Shown piece after piece: positions 52,097 to 62,332 of a stretch of 64,000 nt of DNA (its first letter is position 1; the number at the start of each line of letters is the position of its first letter). Under the pieces are notes generated by a model. That model had not been told where the DNA came from. It ran no database searches and worked only from the letters and a program-made list of their open reading frames with translations. This stretch comes from Actinoplanes xinjiangensis (GTDB lineage: Bacteria; Actinomycetota; Actinomycetes; Mycobacteriales; Micromonosporaceae). A program made the translations under genes and the position numbers. Location of the stretch: positions 62,001 to 126,000 of the forward strand of contig NZ_QGGR01000017.1 in assembly GCF_003148685.1 (NCBI RefSeq). Direction: 5' to 3'.

Positions 52097-52465
52097 TCAG
52101 GAAGATCTCTGCTCTGCTTCCTCGATCGCTTCCCGGACAGTACGGGCGACCTCGTGCAGGAAACGAGCTGCCCCCTCGTCTGTCGGATCGTCGTCCATGT
52201 TCCAGTTGGCATCCCAGGCGGCCAGTCGCAACAGGGTGCCGGACGGCTGTGGCTCAGCCAGAACCGACTCCAATGCGACGAGTTCCTGACGGAGGATGAA
52301 GTTGCTCCGCCCGGCCACCGCCCGGACACTCTGCCTGATCTCGTCGAAGTCGCAGGCGTCCTCGACGTGGCCGTGAATCAGCGCACGAGCCTGCTCGATC
52401 GGCGACCGGGCGGTGAGTTCCGTCGCCCGGCTGCGGAGCGGCTCGGGAAGCTCGGAGAAGTTCAT
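52097..52465 (-). CDS. Candidate cognate immunity protein of the adjacent toxin (122 aa)
   Basis: Starts 4 bases after the toxin stop (minus strand), the usual place for the immunity gene of a C-terminal toxin domain. 122 residues, acidic and helical: MNFSELPEPLRSRATELTAR, LAAWDANWNMDDDPTDEGAA, then VREAIEEAEQRSS. No family recognised. It probably neutralises the RNase A-like tip in the cytosol. Confidence 0.75.
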   Translation of the reverse strand: MNFSELPEPLRSRATELTARSPIEQARALIHGHVEDACDFDEIRQSVRAVAGRSNFILRQELVALESVLAEPQPSGTLLRLAAWDANWNMDDDPTDEGAARFLHEVARTVREAIEEAEQRSS

Positions 52466-52469
52466 GCCA

Positions 52470-55400
52470 TCACCCTAACCCGGACGGAAAAGTCGTGAGA
52501 ATGAAGGCCTGCGGCGGATCCGTATTCTCATCGATTCGAATTCTGATTCGCACCAGACTGGTCTCGGCATACACCGCCTCCCGAGGTCCTGCCCCGTACC
52601 AGCCCTTGTTGTAATAACCGCGACCGACGCGGTGGCCGGCATCGAAGAAGGCCAAGTGTAGCTTTTGCATGGCCAGGTCGCTGCGGATCATCTCCCAGTT
52701 CTGCTGCACATACGCATTAACCTCGTGCTTCAGGGTTGATGCGTCGATCCACTGGAACGATCTGTTCTCCGCATTCCGCCACGGTGCGTCGCCGTAGATG
52801 CGGCCCTCGATCGACTTGGCGGTCGGATCATGGCTCAGTGCCGGGTCACGTTCCATCGGAATGTCCGGCCCGTGGCGGTCCAGGGTGTGAGCGCCTTCGG
52901 CAAGATAACGCGCGTCATTCTCCGCAATGTCGAACTTCGGCGGGACATCGCCCAGCAGGTTGTATCGCCGCATTACGTCGGCGAGCTCGGCTTCCTGCGA
53001 GAGGGGCTGGCCGCTGCCTGTCCCGGCGTCTCCGGAGCCGGAGGGGTCTTGGGCGATGGTGGGCCGACCGCCGTCGGTCATCGGGCTGGCCTCGGCGTTG
53101 CCGTTCACGACCAGGGCGTCCATGCGGACCACGTCGCAAGGGACGTCGAGGCCCGAGTGGGTCTGGAGGGGGAACGTGCTCACCTGGCGGGACTGCGGGT
53201 CCAGGTAGAGGACCGTGCCGTTCTGGTTGACGGCGGCGAAGGCGTGCGTACGGCCGGCCTGGTCCTGGGTTTCGATGAACGCGAACGCGCCGTGGCCCAG
53301 GGATGTCAGGTGGGTGCGGAGGTTGATCTCGGCCATCTTGACCTCGACGCGGGCGTCGTCGGGGGTCAGGCTGCTCACGTCGGTCAGGCCCTGGAAACTG
53401 CCGCCGACGGTGTCTTCGATGCGGGCCGTGACGCCCTGTTCGGCGCCGATCGGGCGGGACGGGTCGCCGTCGTGGTAACCGTCGAACGTTCTCGGGGCGG
53501 ATACCCGCGGGCGGGCGTGCATGTATGTCTCGTACAGCGACAGCACGGTGTCGCCGCAGTTGTTCGAGCGGGTCGGGTCGGCTTCCGGGCCGCCGTCGTT
53601 CTGGAGGCCGAACCATTCGCCGTCGCGCGGGTCGGCGTGCCGGATCACGTCGCCGTTCCCGTCGCGGGGCATGGCGCGTTCCAGGTCGGTCTGGTGCACC
53701 TTCAGCGGGGGCCGGAGTCCGCCGCGCCGGTTGTAGGGGCGGGTCCGGTCGGCCGACGGGGGATGGTCGTTTCCGGTCAGTGCGGATCTGTCGCCGGTGT
53801 CCACCGGGCCGGGGGCGAGGTCGCTGGCGCTCTCGTTGACGAGTTCCCAGTCGTTGCCGGTGAGGTGGACGTCGCCCATCGGGCCGTCGCGGTCGATGCT
53901 CCGCGCCTGGTCCAGGAGCGCGTCGGCCTCGATCTGCAGGCGGTCGGCGTCGATCTCGGCGGTGGCCGTCTGCACCAGGTCGCCGCGATCGCCGGCCCGC
54001 CGCCGGAAATCCGCCTCGTCGGCTTTGTCGCGTGCCTGTCTCCGCAGGTCCTGGGCCGTCTCCTGGCGATGGGTGTCGGCGAACGACTGCCGCCGCTGCC
54101 GGCCCTCGTGCAGATAGTTCTCCCGGGCCCGCGCATCGGCCGCGTCCCGGTCCTCGGTGACCGTCGGTGCCGGCGTCGGAGCCGGTGACGTCTCGGCCAA
54201 CTGGGCGCCATAGTCCGGATCAAGAACGGACAACGGGTCCCTGTTGGCCGGCCCGTTCATGGAAACCGGATCCAACACCGCAAGCGGATCAACGGCCGGG
54301 CGATCCGGCGCGGCGTTCGTCGACGGAGACGATTCCGCTTCGGTACGCCCGAACTCGTCCACAGCCGGAGCGGGCATCGGCAGCGCCGTATCCGTCCGCA
54401 GGGCCAGCTCCTCGGGCCGGACGTCATTGACGTCGGGTGCCGTGTCGGTGCGGGTCGTCAGCTCGTCGGGCCGGGCATCGGTCGAGTCGATTTCGGGCTG
54501 CACCATGGGAGGCGCAGCGTCGGTTAGGGTCGTCAGCGCGTCGGGCCGAACGTTGTTGAAGTCCGGCTGCACCGGAGCCGGAGCCGGGCCTGGAGCCGGA
54601 GCCGGGGCGGGAGCCGGAGTGGGAGCCGGGCCGGGTGCCGGGGCCGGCGACGGCGGCGGTGACGGCTGGATGCTGACCGGCGGCGCGGGCGGCGGTTGCT
54701 GGAGCGCCTGCTGCTGGGCCTGGTAGGCCAACGGCGGCGGGGGCGGCGTGGGCCGGTTGCTGTAGAACGGCGCCGGCGGTGTGTTCGGCACCGCCATCGG
54801 ATTGCCGTGACCGTCGACCATCAGGGCGTTCAGGGCGACGACGTTCCCGGTGCCCGGGGTGCCGTCGTGGCCGTAGAGGGTGCGGTGCTGGGCGAGGGCG
54901 AACTGGGAGGAGTCGGCGCACCGGCCGCTCTGCGGGTCGATGAAGAGAACCGTGCCGTTGTGGTTGACGGCGTTCCAGGCGTGGGCACTGCCGTCACCCC
55001 ACACGTTGATGATGACGGCGGTGGAACCGTGGCCGCCCATCGCGAGGGTGTCGATGATCTGCTGGAAGCCGTCGTCGACCGCGGCCTTCACCACGGCCGG
55101 TGGCCGCGGGTCGGTGGCGACGTCACCGTAGAAGGGTGCGAGCTGGGTGAATCCGCTGCCGGTCACCCGTTCGGCCCGGAGGTGGCCCTCGAACTCCCCG
55201 ACGTGGTTGTCGATCTCCCCGATCCCGTAGGAGTCGATGGTCCGCGGGGCCGAGACGGTGGGACGGCCGTGCAGGTACGTCTCGAGGAACGACAAGGCGC
55301 AGTCGAGACAGTTGACGCCACGGGTGGGGTCCGCGGCCGGGCCGCCGTCGTTGAGCAGCCGCAGCCAGGGGCCCCGGGGGTCCGGATTGCGGACCGGCTG

Positions 55401-58172
55401 GAGGTTCGTGTCGCGGGGGACGGCCCGCTCCAGGTCCGCCTGATGGATCTTCAGCGGTACGCGGAGACCGCCCTCCGTCTGGTACGGCCGGGACAGCCGC
55501 GCGCTGGGCCGGTTGGCCGGGCCCGGAATCGCCGACTGGTCGTTGCTCCAGATCGGGGCGTCGGAGAGATCACCCCGGTCGGCGTTCGCCGGGAGGAAGC
55601 TCGACGAGTTCCTGATGTTCCACTGACCGGCCAGGGCCGTGCGCGGGTCCTTGAGCAGCGCGTCGAGTCTGGTGCTCGCGTCCCGTGCCGCCTTGCGGTG
55701 TGCGGCCTCCTCCTTCAGGGAGTCCCGGACCCCCTTGAAGTCGAGGGAGCGCGCGGCCTTCAGGGCATTGCGCCGGGAGTCCTCCGCGTCGGCGCGTTCC
55801 TGGGCGATCTCCGCGGTCAGGGTCTGGCGTCGCCACTGGTGGATGTCGCGGAGGACGTTCCGCCTGTTCGCATCGAACTGCGCGAAATACTCCTGCTCGC
55901 GCACGTTGTCCTGGGCGGTCCGCGGCTGCATCGGGAACGGGAGCGAGATGGGCGCGGTGCCGGCGAGAGCAGGATCGGTACGCCCGGGATCAGGCCGGGC
56001 CGTGCTGTGCTGTGCAGGCGTGCCCGGCTGCGGGGGAGTCGACGTCGACGGCCCGCTCTGCGTCCCCGGAGTGGCCGCGCCCCCGGTAGGAGACGTGGTC
56101 CCGGTAGGAGAGGTGGTCCCGGTAGGAGAGGTGGTCCCGGTAGGAGGCGTGGTCCCGGTAGGAGGCGTGGTCCCGGTAGGAGGCGTGGTCCCGGAAGGTG
56201 AGGAAGGGCTGGTCGGGTTGAGGTTGCCGCCCGGCGTGCCGACGGTCGGAGTCGACGGGTTCGTCGTCGTGGGGCCGCCGGACAGCGACCCGTTCGGGTT
56301 CGAGCTCGTCCCCGGTCCGGGCGACGTCGTGGGGGATACGGCCGGTCCGGTAGACACGGTCGGGCTGGGGGAGACCGTCGGGCCCGTGGACACGGCCGGG
56401 CCCGCGGCCGCGATCGTCGGCGAACCGCCCGGCCCGGTGTTGCCCGTGGACGGTGCGAAGGCGACCGGCGCGTTGCCCTGCGCGGCTGCGGCCGGCGGCG
56501 CCCCGACCGAGGTGGGTGCCGACGACGACGGCATCCCGGCGCTGGTGGCGGCACCGGCCGGTGCATCGATCGGCGGCGCGACCGAGGACAGCGTCACGTT
56601 GCTCGACGACGACGCGACATGGCCGGCCGCAGAGCTGGGGGCCGGAGCCTGCACGGTCTCGGTCGCTGACGACGTGACGGAGTGGGCGGCCGTCACGGAG
56701 TGAGCGGTCGAAGACGAGGCCGCCACCGTGGCGTCGGCGCTTCCGGAGGAGTGGGACGGCGAGGAGATCCCGGCCGACACGGAGGCCTCGGACGACGAGA
56801 TAGAGGCCTCGGACGTGGAGGCCCCGGACGACGAGAAAGACACCTCGGACGTGGAGGGGGACGACGACCCCGAAGAGTAGGACGGCGCCGACGAGCCGGA
56901 TGACCCGGTCGAGACCGACGAGCCGGATGAACCGGTCGAGACCGACGAGCCGGATGAACCGGTTGAGACGGACGAGCCCGATGAACCGGACGAGGAGGAA
57001 GAGGACGACGAAGACGAGCCGGACGAGGACGACGGCGCATGGCCGTTGCCCGAACCGCCGTCGGGGGAACCGCCACCGGACAGGCCGGAGAGCGCGGAGC
57101 TTCCACCCGTACCGGAGGGGGAGGAAACCGGGACCGGCGACGAACCCGCCGCCGAACCGTCGATGGTGAGCCCGCCCGCGCCGTCGAGGCTCGAACCGAA
57201 ATCGTCGAACGCCTGCCGGGTGTTGCCGACCGCCGAACCGGCGGCGCCGGAGGTGCCGGCCTTGGCGAGATCCTCGAACGAGGGCAGTTTGCCGCCCGCG
57301 GCGGCGCCGCCCAGCTCGCCGAAGACCTCACCGGCCGCGCCGCGGAACAGACCGCTCCGGTTGCCGGCGCCGATCATGGCGCCGTGCGCCGACGCGCCAC
57401 CCGCCGCGCCCGCGACGGTGGACGTGCCCAGGTCGCCGAGGTCGATGCCGTCGGAGTGCCCCACTCCCGCCTGGTACGCCTGGATGCCGAGGTTGGTGAG
57501 GAACTCCTCGCGGGCCTCCTCCTTACCCTCCTTGAACGCCTTCCTGCCGAGGTTCTGGAGGCCCTTCTTCGTGAGCAGGTCCTTGCCGGCGCGCTGCGCG
57601 GTCTCGGTGAGGGTCTGCTTGATCGCCTTGCGGGAGAGCTGCGCGATCAGCCGTCTGAAGATCTGCTGGATCGCCATCCGGGTCGCCGCGATGATGCCAC
57701 CGGCCGCGGGAGAGGCGGCACCCAGCGTGAGCACCACGGTGATCCCCAGGGCGATCAGCTCGCCGACGAAGATCCCCAGCTCGATCCAGGCCTCGAGCTT
57801 CGCCGCCTCGATGTCCTGCCCGCACTCGGCGACGACCTTGCCCATTTCGGCGGCGAAGTTCGCGAGGGCGTTGAGCGGGGCCTCGTCACCCTCGGCGACC
57901 GCCTTCCACGCGGCGATGAAGGAGTCGATCGTGGTGCCGCTACCGCCGTACGCCGTGATGAACTGCCCGGCCGCGGTCGCCGCGTCCTCGGTGGGTGCGG
58001 CCATCGCCTGGTACAGCTCGTACCACTGGTCGGCGAGGTCCCAGGTGAGTTTCTCGTTGCCTTCCGGCCAGTCGAAGCCGACCACCCATTCCAGGGCGTC
58101 GTACGCCCAGCCGGGCAGGTCCCAGGGCGAGTAGTCGAGCGGATGCGGAATCGGGCTCGGCAGGATCGACAT
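52470..58172 (-). CDS. Giant polymorphic toxin: WXG/PPE-like head, two papain-fold glutamine-deamidase domains, RNase A-like C-terminus
   Basis: 1,900 residues from ATG 58172 (MSILPSPIPHPLDYSPWDLP). The N-terminal ~250 residues have the helical WPEGNEKLTWDLADQWYELY head and hydrophobic helices (IFVGELIALGITVVLTLGAA) of actinobacterial type VII-linked toxins. A Ser/Thr/Pro-rich region (~330-760) follows. Tox-PL-type domain 1 (~935-1095) has VNCLDCALSF (Cys ~954), SAHAWNAVNHNG (His) and LFIDPQSG (Asp). Domain 2 (~1510-1675) has NNCGDTVLSLYETY, RTHAFAAVNQNG and LYLDPQS. The last ~160 residues (GAHTLDRHG, RSFQWIDASTLKHEV, FDAGHRVGRG, FILTTFPS) match the CdiA-CT RNase A-like pattern. No signal peptide; export by an ESX-like machine is inferred. 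Immunity gene directly downstream. Confidence 0.88.
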   Translation of the reverse strand: MSILPSPIPHPLDYSPWDLPGWAYDALEWVVGFDWPEGNEKLTWDLADQWYELYQAMAAPTEDAATAAGQFITAYGGSGTTIDSFIAAWKAVAEGDEAPLNALANFAAEMGKVVAECGQDIEAAKLEAWIELGIFVGELIALGITVVLTLGAASPAAGGIIAATRMAIQQIFRRLIAQLSRKAIKQTLTETAQRAGKDLLTKKGLQNLGRKAFKEGKEEAREEFLTNLGIQAYQAGVGHSDGIDLGDLGTSTVAGAAGGASAHGAMIGAGNRSGLFRGAAGEVFGELGGAAAGGKLPSFEDLAKAGTSGAAGSAVGNTRQAFDDFGSSLDGAGGLTIDGSAAGSSPVPVSSPSGTGGSSALSGLSGGGSPDGGSGNGHAPSSSSGSSSSSSSSSSGSSGSSVSTGSSGSSVSTGSSGSSVSTGSSGSSAPSYSSGSSSPSTSEVSFSSSGASTSEASISSSEASVSAGISSPSHSSGSADATVAASSSTAHSVTAAHSVTSSATETVQAPAPSSAAGHVASSSSNVTLSSVAPPIDAPAGAATSAGMPSSSAPTSVGAPPAAAAQGNAPVAFAPSTGNTGPGGSPTIAAAGPAVSTGPTVSPSPTVSTGPAVSPTTSPGPGTSSNPNGSLSGGPTTTNPSTPTVGTPGGNLNPTSPSSPSGTTPPTGTTPPTGTTPPTGTTSPTGTTSPTGTTSPTGGAATPGTQSGPSTSTPPQPGTPAQHSTARPDPGRTDPALAGTAPISLPFPMQPRTAQDNVREQEYFAQFDANRRNVLRDIHQWRRQTLTAEIAQERADAEDSRRNALKAARSLDFKGVRDSLKEEAAHRKAARDASTRLDALLKDPRTALAGQWNIRNSSSFLPANADRGDLSDAPIWSNDQSAIPGPANRPSARLSRPYQTEGGLRVPLKIHQADLERAVPRDTNLQPVRNPDPRGPWLRLLNDGGPAADPTRGVNCLDCALSFLETYLHGRPTVSAPRTIDSYGIGEIDNHVGEFEGHLRAERVTGSGFTQLAPFYGDVATDPRPPAVVKAAVDDGFQQIIDTLAMGGHGSTAVIINVWGDGSAHAWNAVNHNGTVLFIDPQSGRCADSSQFALAQHRTLYGHDGTPGTGNVVALNALMVDGHGNPMAVPNTPPAPFYSNRPTPPPPPLAYQAQQQALQQPPPAPPVSIQPSPPPSPAPAPGPAPTPAPAPAPAPGPAPAPVQPDFNNVRPDALTTLTDAAPPMVQPEIDSTDARPDELTTRTDTAPDVNDVRPEELALRTDTALPMPAPAVDEFGRTEAESSPSTNAAPDRPAVDPLAVLDPVSMNGPANRDPLSVLDPDYGAQLAETSPAPTPAPTVTEDRDAADARARENYLHEGRQRRQSFADTHRQETAQDLRRQARDKADEADFRRRAGDRGDLVQTATAEIDADRLQIEADALLDQARSIDRDGPMGDVHLTGNDWELVNESASDLAPGPVDTGDRSALTGNDHPPSADRTRPYNRRGGLRPPLKVHQTDLERAMPRDGNGDVIRHADPRDGEWFGLQNDGGPEADPTRSNNCGDTVLSLYETYMHARPRVSAPRTFDGYHDGDPSRPIGAEQGVTARIEDTVGGSFQGLTDVSSLTPDDARVEVKMAEINLRTHLTSLGHGAFAFIETQDQAGRTHAFAAVNQNGTVLYLDPQSRQVSTFPLQTHSGLDVPCDVVRMDALVVNGNAEASPMTDGGRPTIAQDPSGSGDAGTGSGQPLSQEAELADVMRRYNLLGDVPPKFDIAENDARYLAEGAHTLDRHGPDIPMERDPALSHDPTAKSIEGRIYGDAPWRNAENRSFQWIDASTLKHEVNAYVQQNWEMIRSDLAMQKLHLAFFDAGHRVGRGYYNKGWYGAGPREAVYAETSLVRIRIRIDENTDPPQAFILTTFPSGLG

Positions 58173-58176
58173 GCGG

Positions 58177-58503
58177 TCAGGCCTGGTACGACTTGGCGAC
58201 GGTCGAGGAGGCACGCGCGTCGGCGGCGGTGTTGTCCTCGACGGTCAGCACAGCGGCCTGGCCGATGCCCTCGACATAGCCGGCGACCTTGCCGAACGCC
58301 TCGACGAATTTCGCCACCATCGGCCCGTAGTCCTTCTGGAAGGCGGCGCCGATCTCGTCGCGTCCCCACGGCTGGTCCGCGCCGGCCGCCGCCACCTCGG
58401 CGACCGCGCTGGTGCCGAGGCTGACCAGCTGTGATCCGGCCGCGGACAGATCACGCCCGGCCGCGGTGGCCCGGGGCGCGTCGAGGTGGAGCTCACCGGG
58501 CAT
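58177..58503 (-). CDS. WXG100-like secretion partner (108 aa)
   Basis: From ATG 58503 (MPGELHLDAPRATAAGRDLS). Helix-turn-helix hairpin architecture with DQPWGRDEIGAAFQKDYGPM at the turn in place of a strict WxG, then VEDNTAADARASSTVAKSYQ. This is the small ESAT-6/EspC-like partner usually encoded beside type VII polymorphic toxins. The toxin start follows 4 bases after its stop; its start overlaps the preceding gene. Confidence 0.85.
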   Translation of the reverse strand: MPGELHLDAPRATAAGRDLSAAGSQLVSLGTSAVAEVAAAGADQPWGRDEIGAAFQKDYGPMVAKFVEAFGKVAGYVEGIGQAAVLTVEDNTAADARASSTVAKSYQA

Positions 58504-58921
58504 CGTCGTCACCCGCCTCGCGCATGATCCGGTCCTGGCGGGCCAGCAGGTTGCCGAAGTTGCCGTCACGCATGAACCCGGCCGCGGCCGAGTCGGGCGG
58601 AAGATACTCGCCGACCATCTCCTGCACCTGGTCACCGGTCCTGGCGACGGCCCGCTCGACGGTACGCAGAATCGTGCGGGCCAGCTCGTCCGGGTCGCCG
58701 CGACGGTAGATCTCCCGGCTGAGCCGCAGGTCGATCAGCTGGCCACGGGCGCCGACGGTGGCCCGCACCGTGCCGTCGGCCGACTCCTCGGTGACGGCCA
58801 GCTTGGACAGACGCTCCTGGATGTCGTCCAGCCCGGTGCGCAGGCGCTGGTACTGCGACACGACGTCGTCGAACCGGGCCCGTAGAGCGTGGTTCACGTC
58901 CCGATCGGCCTGTCTGCTCAC
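58493..58921 (-). CDS. YbaB/EbfC family protein of the toxin operon
   Basis: 142 residues from GTG 58921 with GGGGAG upstream. Coiled N-terminus (DDVVSQYQRLRTGLDDIQER), then GTVRATVGARGQLIDLRLSR, the YbaB/EbfC beta-strand signature, and a C-terminal helix. This family precedes WXG100 and toxin genes in many actinobacteria and may assist secretion rather than bind DNA. It is the first gene of the island operon. Confidence 0.85.
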   Translation of the reverse strand: MSRQADRDVNHALRARFDDVVSQYQRLRTGLDDIQERLSKLAVTEESADGTVRATVGARGQLIDLRLSREIYRRGDPDELARTILRTVERAVARTGDQVQEMVGEYLPPDSAAAGFMRDGNFGNLLARQDRIMREAGDDDAR

Positions 58922-59054
58922 GGCTGTCTCCCCGAGGACTCGCGAATTGACTGCAAGAACCTACCAGCCGGGCTCCGTCCCGGGGCCGCCGCCGAGTGAC
59001 GGTTCCCGATAGCTCTAAGCTCCAGTTCCGGGGACCGAAGGGGGCGGGGCCAGG

Positions 59055-60305
59055 ATGATCACGCGGACCGAGGCGGAGCGGATCGCCGTCGGCTGGGCCC
59101 GCCGGCAGTCGATCCGGCGCGGCTATCCGTGTACGCCGTACGTCGAGGAACTGGCCCTCGGCTGGGCGGTGTCGATGGTGCTGCCACCGGACGTGCGTAC
59201 CGAGCCGGGTGCCGACGTGACCACGGTCATCGACCGGACGACCGGCCGGCTGTCGCACTGGCCACCCGCGCCCACCGCCGACCTCGACCAGCGCTACACC
59301 GAGCGCCGTGACGCCGCCGTCGGTGCACATCAGACCGCCGATCCGATCGCCGAGCTGCGGCGTGAGGCGTACCGCCGGGTCAGCCCCTCGGTGGCCGCAC
59401 ACCTGACGCTCGGCGGCCGGCTGTTCCGGGCCCGCGGCGCCAAGGGCGACCAGGAGCTGCGCCACCACCCGGTCGTCGCCGGTCTGCTGGCCGCGATCGG
59501 GCCGGCGGGCACGGTCCGCGGCGCCGACCGCCACGCCGAGCTGCTGGTGGTGTCGGACGTGCTCTACGAGGCCGACCGGACCAGGGCCGCCGCCGGTATC
59601 GCCCCGCTCACCCTCGACGAGGCCCGCACCCTGCTCGGGCAGGGCCGTCTCGAGACGTTCCACATCCGGGAGAGCGGCGACCGTCTCGGCGGCCAACCCG
59701 CCACGTTCTGCGTCACGTGCGCCGGCGTGCTTCTCGACCTGACCGTGATCACCGACGCCGACCGGGCCCATCCGCAGGTGCGGCGGCTGACCTCGGGGAC
59801 CGATCCGCAGCCCGGCCGTTTCCCCGCGGAGGTGGCCTGGGAGCTGGCCGCCGGAGACTGGGGCAGCGAGCCGGAGTACCGGGAGAGCCGCGGCGCCGGG
59901 CTGATCGAACGGATCGAGGCGTCCCGCGGGCGGGAGCACGCGCTGTCCCGGTTCCCGGCGGCGGAGGCCGCCTTGCGCGAGTTCTCCGACGTCGCGCCCG
60001 GCCGCAACGGGCCCGGTGCCGCCCAGTGGGTCCGCTGGTTCCACCTCGGCAGCGGCAACCTGTTGCACCTGGCCGACCCGCTGCACGAACTGGGCACGGT
60101 CGTCGGTGCCCGGATGTTCCCGATCGGCCGGGAGGGGTTCGACGAGGCGGTCCTCGCCATCGACGAGCACGGGCGGGTGTTCTCCCTGGATCAGGGCGGT
60201 GAGTGGTTCATCGCCGCCACCCTCGACCAGGCGATCGTCGCGCTGACCACGGGCCTGCCCGCCGCCCGGATCCGCGATGACGGCACCTGGCGGGAGGAAT
60301 CATGA
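59055..60305 (+). CDS. YrhB/Imm35-like + cytidine-deaminase-fold + SUKH-3 fusion protein, paralogue A
   Basis: 416 residues. N-terminal ~75 residues (MITRTEAERIAVGWARR, VEELALGWAV, TTVIDRTTGRLSHWP) match YrhB/Imm35-type immunity domains. The centre has deaminase-fold metal motifs: RHAELLVVSD (HAE at 160-162) and TFCVTCAGVLLDL (Cys 219 and 222), with the conserved RARGAKGDQELRHH upstream. The C-terminal ~90 residues (LHELGTVVGARMFPIGREGF, LAIDEHGRVFSLDQGGEWF) match SUKH-3 immunity domains. No export signal. Divergent from the toxin operon, overlapping paralogue B by ATGA. A deaminase held between two immunity-type domains is unusual; substrate (nucleotide or nucleic acid) unknown. Confidence 0.82.
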   Translation: MITRTEAERIAVGWARRQSIRRGYPCTPYVEELALGWAVSMVLPPDVRTEPGADVTTVIDRTTGRLSHWPPAPTADLDQRYTERRDAAVGAHQTADPIAELRREAYRRVSPSVAAHLTLGGRLFRARGAKGDQELRHHPVVAGLLAAIGPAGTVRGADRHAELLVVSDVLYEADRTRAAAGIAPLTLDEARTLLGQGRLETFHIRESGDRLGGQPATFCVTCAGVLLDLTVITDADRAHPQVRRLTSGTDPQPGRFPAEVAWELAAGDWGSEPEYRESRGAGLIERIEASRGREHALSRFPAAEAALREFSDVAPGRNGPGAAQWVRWFHLGSGNLLHLADPLHELGTVVGARMFPIGREGFDEAVLAIDEHGRVFSLDQGGEWFIAATLDQAIVALTTGLPAARIRDDGTWREES

Positions 60306-61549
60306 TCACTCGTGCGGATGCCGATGCGGTCGCGGCGGCGTGGGCGCGGTCCGAGTCCCTGGCCAAGGGGCGTGAACACCGGGCCACCGTGGAGGAGTTC
60401 GATCTCGGTTTCGCGGTGAAGACCTCGGCGGTACGACGGTTGTTCTCCCCGTCCGGGGTCGGCACCGGGGTGCGGGTCGTCGACCGGGATACCGGCCGGG
60501 TGTCGAACTGGCCGAACTGGCCGCTCGCGACGTTGCGGGAGGTCTACCGGGAGCAGCGGGGCGACATCGTCGACCCGCCGAAGACGGCCGACCCCGAGTT
60601 GCAGCTGCGCCGGGAGATCCACCGGCAGCCCGCCCCGAGCGTGGCGGCGCACGCCACGGTGCAGGGCCGGGTGTACATCGCCCGGGGCGCCAAGGGCGAC
60701 CAGAAACTCGGCCACCACCGGCTCGTGCGGGAACGGCTGGCCGAACAGTCGCCGCAGGAGACGGTGCGCGGCTGCGAGCGGCACGCCGAGATGATCGTCT
60801 GCTCGGACGCGCTGCACGACGTGGACCGGCGCCGCGGGCTCGACGGTCTGCCGCCGCTCACCCTGGACGAGGCGCGGCAGGTGCTCGGCGGGTCACTCTT
60901 CGAGACGTTCCAGATCCTCCCCCCGGGCGCGGAGACCGCCGGCGAGCCGAACACCCCGTGCGCGACCTGCTCGTACGTGTTGACCCAGCTGGCGCTGCTG
61001 CCGTGGGGGTCGACCGGCGCGCTCCACCACGACATCGCGCCGGAGCAGCCCAACCCCGACCCCGCCCGGTTCTCCGACGTGACCGCCTCGGAACTGCTCA
61101 ACGGCCGGTGGAAACCGGAGACCCCGTACCAGGTGCGCTACGGCATGGCCGAGGTGATGGCCGAGGACGTCGTCAAGACCCGGGGGCAGGAGCACCGCCA
61201 CGAGCCGTTCCCCGCGGTGTACGAAGCGTTCGGGCTGACCGGCAAGCTGCTCGTCAAGCGCCGGGCGCCCGGCGTGGAGCAACGGGTCCAGCTCTTCGAG
61301 ATCTGGTCGACACCGGTCCGGCACACCGCCGACGTGCTGCACGAGTTCGGGCAGGTGATCGGGGCGCGACTGTTCCCGCTCGGCCGGGTCAACTTCGAGT
61401 CGGTGCTCGCCATCGACGAGCACGGCCGGGTCTTCCACCTCGACCAGGCCGGCGAGTGGTTCGTCGCCGACAGCTACGTCGAGGCACTGGAGACCCTGAT
61501 CCAGGGCCGGCGGACCCATCGGGTACGCGACGACGGCACCTGGGGATAG
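60302..61549 (+). CDS. YrhB/Imm35-like + cytidine-deaminase-fold + SUKH-3 fusion protein, paralogue B
   Basis: 415 residues, same layout as paralogue A. N-terminal EEFDLGFAV and VVDRDTGRVSNWP; deaminase motifs ERHAEMIVCSD (HAE 161-163) and NTPCATCSYVL (Cys 220 and 223, here with the canonical Pro before Cys); C-terminal SUKH-3 segment RLFPLGRVNFESVLAIDEHG. Conserved blocks with A: PSVAAHxTxxGR, ARGAKGDQxL, LTLDEARxxLG. The two have diverged over most of their length, so this is not a recent duplication. They are translationally coupled and may act as a heteromer. Confidence 0.82.
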   Translation: MITRADADAVAAAWARSESLAKGREHRATVEEFDLGFAVKTSAVRRLFSPSGVGTGVRVVDRDTGRVSNWPNWPLATLREVYREQRGDIVDPPKTADPELQLRREIHRQPAPSVAAHATVQGRVYIARGAKGDQKLGHHRLVRERLAEQSPQETVRGCERHAEMIVCSDALHDVDRRRGLDGLPPLTLDEARQVLGGSLFETFQILPPGAETAGEPNTPCATCSYVLTQLALLPWGSTGALHHDIAPEQPNPDPARFSDVTASELLNGRWKPETPYQVRYGMAEVMAEDVVKTRGQEHRHEPFPAVYEAFGLTGKLLVKRRAPGVEQRVQLFEIWSTPVRHTADVLHEFGQVIGARLFPLGRVNFESVLAIDEHGRVFHLDQAGEWFVADSYVEALETLIQGRRTHRVRDDGTWG

Positions 61550-61646
61550 CTTCGGACGCGGTCACGGAGTACCGGCCCCCGGTGCGGCAACCGTCCGCGA
61601 CCCGCCGGGCAACCGTTCCGCAACCGGGGGATGCCATCGTCGCAGC

Positions 61647-62237
61647 GTGACCGGTGCCCGTACCCCTGCATCCCGCCTGGCGAAAGTCGGCCTGGCGGTG
61701 GCCGCCGTGGTGCTCGGCGCCGGGCTCGCGCCGTCGCCCGCGGACGCCGACGGGCCCGGCTACGGCGGCAACGCCGACGCCCTCACCGTCCTCTGGGAGA
61801 TCAACGCCCAGCGGCGCGGCCTGGCCGTGTACGCCGTCGGGTTCCGGAGCGGCTCACCGGTGCGGGTCCGGGTCGGTTCGGACGCCGAGCGGACGGTCAC
61901 CGCCGACCCGTACGGTGCCGTCGACCTGCTGCTCACCTCGGCCGTCGCCGGCACCTCCGCGGTGGCCGGCGGCCCGACGCTCACGGGAGGGACGGCGGTC
62001 GCCGCGGCCACCGGTGCGAGCGTGCTGGTCACCGGCCACACCCCGGCCGGGGAACTGCGCACGCTGATCGGTGCGGTCCCACCGGAGATGTCCGGCCGGG
62101 GCGCCGTGGAGATCGTCCCGTGGGTGGCCGCCCTCGCCGGCTCGCTGCTGGCCGGGCTGTGGCTGCGCCGCCGGTACGGCTCGGCCTTCACCGGCAACGT
62201 GCGCCGCTACCGCCATCCGGCCCGCCACCGGGCCTGA
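61647..62237 (+). CDS. Secreted, C-terminally membrane-anchored hypothetical protein
   Basis: 196 residues from GTG 61647. Signal peptide (LAKVGLAVAAVVLGAGLAPS ... ADADG), a ~110-residue beta-rich domain (LTVLWEINAQRRGLAVYAVG, SDAERTVTADPYGAVDLLLT), and a C-terminal helix (IVPWVAALAGSLLAGLWL) followed by a basic tail (RRRYGSAFTGNVRRYRHPAR). It looks like a cell-surface protein with one terminal anchor; no family recognised. Its last 22 codons lie in the first copy of an exact 81-bp duplication. Confidence 0.72.
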   Translation: MTGARTPASRLAKVGLAVAAVVLGAGLAPSPADADGPGYGGNADALTVLWEINAQRRGLAVYAVGFRSGSPVRVRVGSDAERTVTADPYGAVDLLLTSAVAGTSAVAGGPTLTGGTAVAAATGASVLVTGHTPAGELRTLIGAVPPEMSGRGAVEIVPWVAALAGSLLAGLWLRRRYGSAFTGNVRRYRHPARHRA

Positions 62238-62332
62238 CCTCAGGCACGCCGCCGGTACGGCTCGGCCTTCACCGGCAACGTGCGCCGCTACCGCCATCCG
62301 GCCCGCCACCGGGCCTGACCTCAGGCACGCCG
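62171..62332. repeat. Exact 81-bp tandem duplication at a gene end, with degenerate further copies
   Basis: Bases 62171-62251 and 62252-62332 are identical. Unit starts CCGGTACGGCTCGGCCTTCA and contains the stop codon of the surface-protein gene, so the second copy is untranslated. Degenerate copies (CTACCGCCACCGG and CGGGTCACGG words) continue to about 62480. Confidence 0.95.

Follow-up and report, generated by a model that had tools for sequence, protein, structure and literature searches.

A tandem pair of three-domain proteins with a YwqJ-type deaminase between immunity-type domains, next to a type VII toxin operon of Actinoplanes xinjiangensis

In the 64,000-nucleotide stretch of the Actinoplanes xinjiangensis genome analyzed here (the window; contig NZ_QGGR01000017.1, positions 62,001 to 126,000), two adjoining forward-strand genes encode three-domain proteins in which a YwqJ-type deaminase lies between two immunity-type domains. 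Protein A (P0001, 416 residues) is encoded at 59055..60305 and its paralogue, protein B (P0002, 415 residues, 44% identical to A), at 60302..61549, the two genes being coupled by a four-nucleotide ATGA stop/start overlap (60302..60305, forward strand) visible in the sequence. A WXG100_2 toxin operon runs divergently from the pair on the opposite strand. Both the ATGA coupling and the divergence from a type VII toxin had been pointed out in an earlier reading made from the letters alone (hereafter the sequence-only reading), and both are correct.

In protein A, a YrhB/Imm35-like N-terminal domain (residues 1-95, 59055..59339, linked by hhalign to Imm35 plus YrhB) is followed by the YwqJ-type deaminase (residues 98-229, 59346..59741, PF14431, E-value (E) 1.8e-20) and by a SUKH-3 domain (residues 256-400, 59820..60254, PF14433, E 3.1e-27). 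Protein B has the same order, with the YrhB/Imm35-like domain at 60302..60589 (from the alignment and from hhalign of that alignment), the deaminase at residues 104-231 (60611..60994, PF14431, E 2.1e-19), and SUKH-3 at residues 283-402 (61148..61507, PF14433, E 2.9e-26), all on the forward strand. The Pfam matches to deaminase and SUKH-3 are far above the cut-offs in both proteins (for PF14431, 74 and 70.5 bits, the curated cut-off being 25.9), and both sequences contain the HAE and CxxC motifs. In A, the corresponding quartet is H160, E162, C219, and C222, which is invariant across a 50-row alignment. The AlphaFold2 (AF2) model of P0001 (predicted local distance difference test, pLDDT, 93.2; predicted template modeling score, pTM, 0.90) has the three domains packed together and bears out the SUKH fold as well as the deaminase fold that the sequence-only reading had placed around HAE/CxxC. 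The fold of the SUKH-3 domain matches PSPTO_5518, Syd, and Knr4. NCBIfam has no family for P0001 or P0002, and Pfam gave no WXG or LXG secretion domain in these two proteins or in 24 family members.

The three-part composition proposed from the sequence is thus confirmed by Pfam for the deaminase and SUKH-3, while the YrhB/Imm35 label of the N-terminal domain has no Pfam match (PF15567 was found in none of 24 family members) and comes only from profile-profile comparison. When a profile of the domain was compared by hhalign with nine Imm35 segments, the result was 1.6%, and subsets gave 0.9% and 2.0%. It rose to 93.7% (E 1.9e-7) with a broader, 65-row query and a template that also included E. 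coli YrhB. The same broader query gave 65.8% against YrhB alone, and three control domains gave 0.1-0.2%. Modeled alone, the N-terminal domain of A has a pLDDT of 83.8 and a pTM of 0.74. On these comparisons, the domain may be a distant relative of YrhB/Imm35.

The divergent operon encodes a type VII secretion system (T7SS) polymorphic toxin of 1914 residues (52470..58214, reverse strand; PF25547, E 8.9e-20; PF15644, E 2.6e-50, in two stretches), which consists of a WXG100_2 domain, a linker, two Tox-PL1 (Gln_amidase) domains, and a variable tip. The Tox-PL1 domains lie at 54924..55313 (domain 1) and 53187..53564 (domain 2) on the reverse strand, and both contain the NC ... H ... DxQ pattern that is given as the Tox-PL1 signature in the available part of a 2012 survey (PMC3482391). 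The first gene of the operon encodes a small YbaB-family protein (58493..58921, reverse strand, PF02575, E 1.3e-14), and a YbaB-family gene occurs at the equivalent place in many relatives. It is followed by a small ESX/WXG-like protein (58177..58635, reverse strand, true start uncertain), labeled by its place and size, with no Pfam match. Directly behind the toxin, a 122-residue frame (52097-52465, reverse strand) without a family match is a candidate tip-immunity gene. The divergent intergenic region (58922-59054) has blocks conserved in the clade with tandem genes, possibly a shared promoter or operator; a promoter and terminator scan of 58400-61800 found nothing. Downstream of the pair, a perfect 81-bp tandem duplication (62166-62327, 100% identical) lies near the end of a small frame (61647-62237). 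The 10.8-Mb host genome has EccC matches over the cut-off at three loci, all on contigs other than that of the gene pair.

The profile of the fused protein matches 190 of 300 sampled genomes of the taxonomic family (E<=1e-10) and 48 of 394 sampled genomes of the class (E<=1e-5; 8 of 138 genera), with incomplete matches (for instance to the N-terminal domain or to SUKH-3 only) included in these counts. Part of the matching places were fetched and, after removal of nine duplicate loci, gave 83 fused genes in 66 loci. In 79 of the 83, the quartet H160/E162/C219/C222 is intact, His or Cys being accepted at the first position, in line with the intact HAE and Cys residues that the sequence-only reading had noted in the pair. 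Codon comparisons indicate purifying selection on each of the three domains: the ratio of nonsynonymous to synonymous substitution rates (dN/dS) is 0.11-0.38 in the deaminase (seven close pairs), 0.10-0.42 in SUKH-3, and 0.13-0.81 in the N-terminal domain (eight close pairs for each of these two). A paralogue subfamily in the same genus (L098:9639-10802, L104:8775-9913, L105:9283-10433, and L112; L104 and L111 are one gene) has a deaminase that lost both HxE and CxxC and is still fused to or adjoining SUKH-3. The fetched stretches of these motif-less paralogues show no toxin, and G172 and G208, genomes that carry them, have no Tox-PL1 match at all.

A WXG100_2 toxin is present in the stretch in 60 of the 66 fused-gene loci, and Tox-PL1 in 58. 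This recurrent linkage to one toxin type does not support the self-contained system that the sequence-only reading had envisaged. We also compared 41 genomes picked from the family survey, with and without matches to the family profile (at E<=1e-8, incomplete matches included): among the 34 with a match, Tox-PL1 is strong (E<1e-10) in 31, weak in one, and missing in two, and among the seven without a match it is strong in none and weak in one. In 15 toxins of tandem loci, mean identity is 80% in the N-terminal domain and 67% and 75% in the two Tox-PL1 domains, and the last 120 residues cannot be aligned in 90 of 105 pairs; the A proteins of these loci are 63-85% identical to P0001. As the tips vary while the three-domain proteins stay alike, the latter are associated with the toxin's constant part, and immunity to the tip, with which they do not covary, was rejected as their function.

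Another locus of the host genome holds an RHS toxin that ends in Tox-PL1 (L064:1-1731, C4 near 419,000; the Tox-PL1 domain is a partial PF15644 match), and the start of an Imm35 gene lies three nucleotides past the toxin's stop codon. The available part of PMC3482391 pairs Imm35/YrhB (PF15567) with Tox-PL1 as a 'possible protease inhibitor', and the RHS arrangement is an independent case of the pairing listed there.

The same domains also occur as separate genes. In genus g70, probably Streptomyces as inferred from gene content, 39 genomes had matches in the class survey. Of its 11 fetched loci, 10 have the YwqJ deaminase and SUKH-3 as adjoining separate genes and one (L035) has them fused. 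The adjoining genes of other actinobacteria support the earlier view of deaminase and SUKH as one unit. In these separate-gene relatives, Cys, a known zinc ligand at that position, replaces the His of the deaminase motif, and Glu and CxxC are kept. In all 11 loci, the deaminase/SUKH-3 genes are divergent from a protein starting with the same N-terminal domain. One such protein (L031:10023-12995), the only one scanned with Pfam, has the YrhB-like domain, a long Pro/Ala-rich linker, an XOO_2897 deaminase, and SUKH-4, and by this domain content it is a parallel three-domain architecture. Counterparts stand at matching places in L029-L039, and 10 of the 11 show an HTE...YC motif; the L031 gene lies near what look, from their sequences, like glmU, prs, and pth.

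A further arrangement is found with giant toxins (frames of 2.7-5.2 thousand residues in L070-L085), in which YwqJ directly precedes the first of one to four Tox-PL1 domains. C-x-E ... CxxC is visible in nine of these sequences, one of them a 563-residue frame, and Pfam confirms YwqJ and Tox-PL1 in both giant toxins scanned. The deaminase thus occurs on the toxin side as well as on the immunity side. Proteins with the N-terminal domain and SUKH-3 but without deaminase lie near the toxin in eight of nine paired giant-toxin stretches, the ninth (L090/L091) having the N-terminal domain alone. In L074/L075, the stretch that was annotated, the gene for such a protein has eccD on one side and eccB on the other within a T7SS cluster, and YwqJ and SUKH-3 occur as separate genes about 11 kb away.

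We interpret the proteins of the window as immunity-side partners of a T7SS toxin locus that carry a fused, cis-restrained deaminase, with a probability of roughly 0.5. It is supported by the domains, the predicted fold, the motif conservation, the linkage to the toxin's constant portion, the split homologues, and the Imm35 gene behind another Tox-PL1 toxin, all of which are computed observations. In B. subtilis, ywqJ-ywqK is a toxin-antitoxin pair, and induction of YwqJ markedly affects growth, with no visible effect on chromosome and rRNA, according to the available part of PMC8321402. Since YwqJ is known there as a T7SS toxin, the best reading of a deaminase that adjoins SUKH-3 or is fused to it is a toxin-immunity pair, which here has become a single chain: a toxin domain, presumably capable of deamination, would be made together with its own SUKH-3 immunity domain and held by it in cis. 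The chain may have a second task, namely immunity to the papain-like part, to which both the YrhB-like domain and the association with constant Tox-PL1 point. Both proteins would stay in the cytosol as partners of the neighboring type VII-secreted toxin, where the YrhB-like domain may bind the constant papain-like core (Tox-PL1) of that toxin and neutralize it, both in the producing cell and in its kin.

Several findings weigh against this interpretation. Six of the 66 fused-gene loci show no toxin (five have about 7-12 kb of flanking sequence on either side, and the sixth, L156, starts 1.1 kb from a contig end), which indicates that the toxin is not always needed. The rule of one three-domain protein per Tox-PL1 domain, which held in the first 15 loci (the window and L006-L019), failed afterwards and was given up: among the 60 toxin-linked loci, the Tox-PL1/gene counts are 1/1 in 33, 2/2 in 17, 2/1 in eight, and none seen/1 in two, so that the prediction fails in eight of 25 loci with two Tox-PL1 domains, which have a single gene. 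In these 60 loci, two genes occur only alongside two Tox-PL1 domains, through about two independent events (15 loci in one clade, two in another genus). In the trees, the duplication of Tox-PL1 looks older than that of the gene in the window's clade, and giant-toxin loci break the copy-number rule too. The YrhB link comes from profile comparison, with an outcome that varied with the breadth of the alignments. Moreover, zinc or catalytic residues are broken in four of the 83 fused genes, in three lineages: L089 (Glu to Asp), L141 and L142 (both cysteines, in one genome), and L098. The fold and the partners are kept, and a toxin lies in the stretch of the first three and not in that of L098. With active-site residues lost in at least three lineages, catalysis is not always needed, and the deaminase may serve as a scaffold in some of them. 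The sequence-only reading had argued for retained catalysis; its residues are indeed intact in most fused genes, but the four broken genes and the toxin-unlinked, motif-less paralogues do not allow a general rule.

These losses indicate that the domain is kept without catalysis in some lineages and support a scaffold role at least there. Applied to the whole family, the deaminase would be a binding scaffold or decoy and the entire protein an immunity protein whose catalysis is a relic, as the paralogues lacking both motifs could illustrate. We find this doubtful as a general account, in view of the full quartet in 79 of 83 fused genes and of the separate-gene relatives, which retain Glu and CxxC, with Cys in place of His. 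A conserved, apparently intact enzyme beside two immunity-type domains, packed into one compact model, might alternatively act as a guard, the YrhB-like domain sensing the Tox-PL1 core and freeing the deaminase from SUKH-3 so that the invaded cell stops growing, much as in the trigger-released deaminase of the sequence-only reading. Such a switch seems unlikely to us: the deaminase-free proteins at giant-toxin loci have no such output themselves. Rather improbable, too, is a booby-trapped antitoxin for the papain-like toxin core, with an armed deaminase held by SUKH-3 and freed when the YrhB-like domain meets excess or foreign toxin; if true, a cell that cannot be protected would shut down to the benefit of its kin.

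The two remaining explanations leave the toxin aside. An enzyme editing the nucleotide pool, RNA, or DNA, with regulatory domains and outside toxin conflict, is quite improbable, given the toxin in the stretch of 60 of 66 fused-gene loci and the immunity-type nature of the partner domains. An anti-phage defense module, whose only argument is that self-restrained enzymes broadly resemble abortive systems, is very improbable, and the phage trigger considered in the sequence-only reading goes with it: PADLOC-DB v2.0.0 gives no family at E<=1, P0002 was unmatched in 50,697 phage records (tblastn, E<=1e-5), and the linked gene encodes a secreted bacterial toxin.

We found neither the three-domain protein, nor its link to the Tox-PL1 core, nor the split forms in the literature searched; supplements and two 2011 surveys, the likeliest places for deaminase-SUKH fusions, were outside its scope, and a prior mention is possible. 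In the parts that were available, PMC3482391 lists SUKH fusions to toxins and to other immunity domains in general terms, with no deaminase-SUKH-3 combination of this kind found, and PMC12136450, which deals with a papain-like toxin used between bacteria and with the matching immunity protein, mentions neither Imm35, SUKH, nor YrhB. Immunity proteins are commonly seen as passive inhibitors, and a conserved family with an apparently intact toxin-type enzyme on the immunity side, next to the constant core of a T7SS toxin, would combine protection with self-destruction in a single chain. The presence of the same domains, split and fused, in related genomes makes a clean test possible, and the family is a possible lead on how papain-like Tox-PL1 domains are restrained inside actinobacterial T7SS toxins.

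Among known systems, YwqJ-type toxins (PF14431; B. subtilis YwqJ-YwqK, LXG/T7SS) share with the proteins described here the H-x-E and CxxC deaminase and the membership of a T7SS toxin locus, but here no LXG or WXG domain was found and the deaminase lies within an immunity-type protein rather than at the tip of a toxin. The C-terminal SUKH-3 domain is common to SUKH-3 immunity proteins (PF14433), and is here fused behind a deaminase. Imm35/YrhB shows the same linkage to Tox-PL1, whereas the domain in our proteins is below Pfam detection and fused to other domains. The g70 protein with XOO_2897 (PF14440) and SUKH-4 (PF14435), a parallel in architecture, has the same N-terminal domain and the same order of deaminase, then SUKH; it differs in its deaminase and SUKH families and in its long Pro/Ala-rich linker, and a T7SS toxin of the window's type was not found in the fetched 20 kb of the g70 loci. 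Finally, polyimmunity proteins, as described in the available part of PMC3482391, also have several immunity-type domains per chain, and tandem genes are found here as well, but in the proteins of the window an apparently intact toxin-type domain is placed between the immunity domains.
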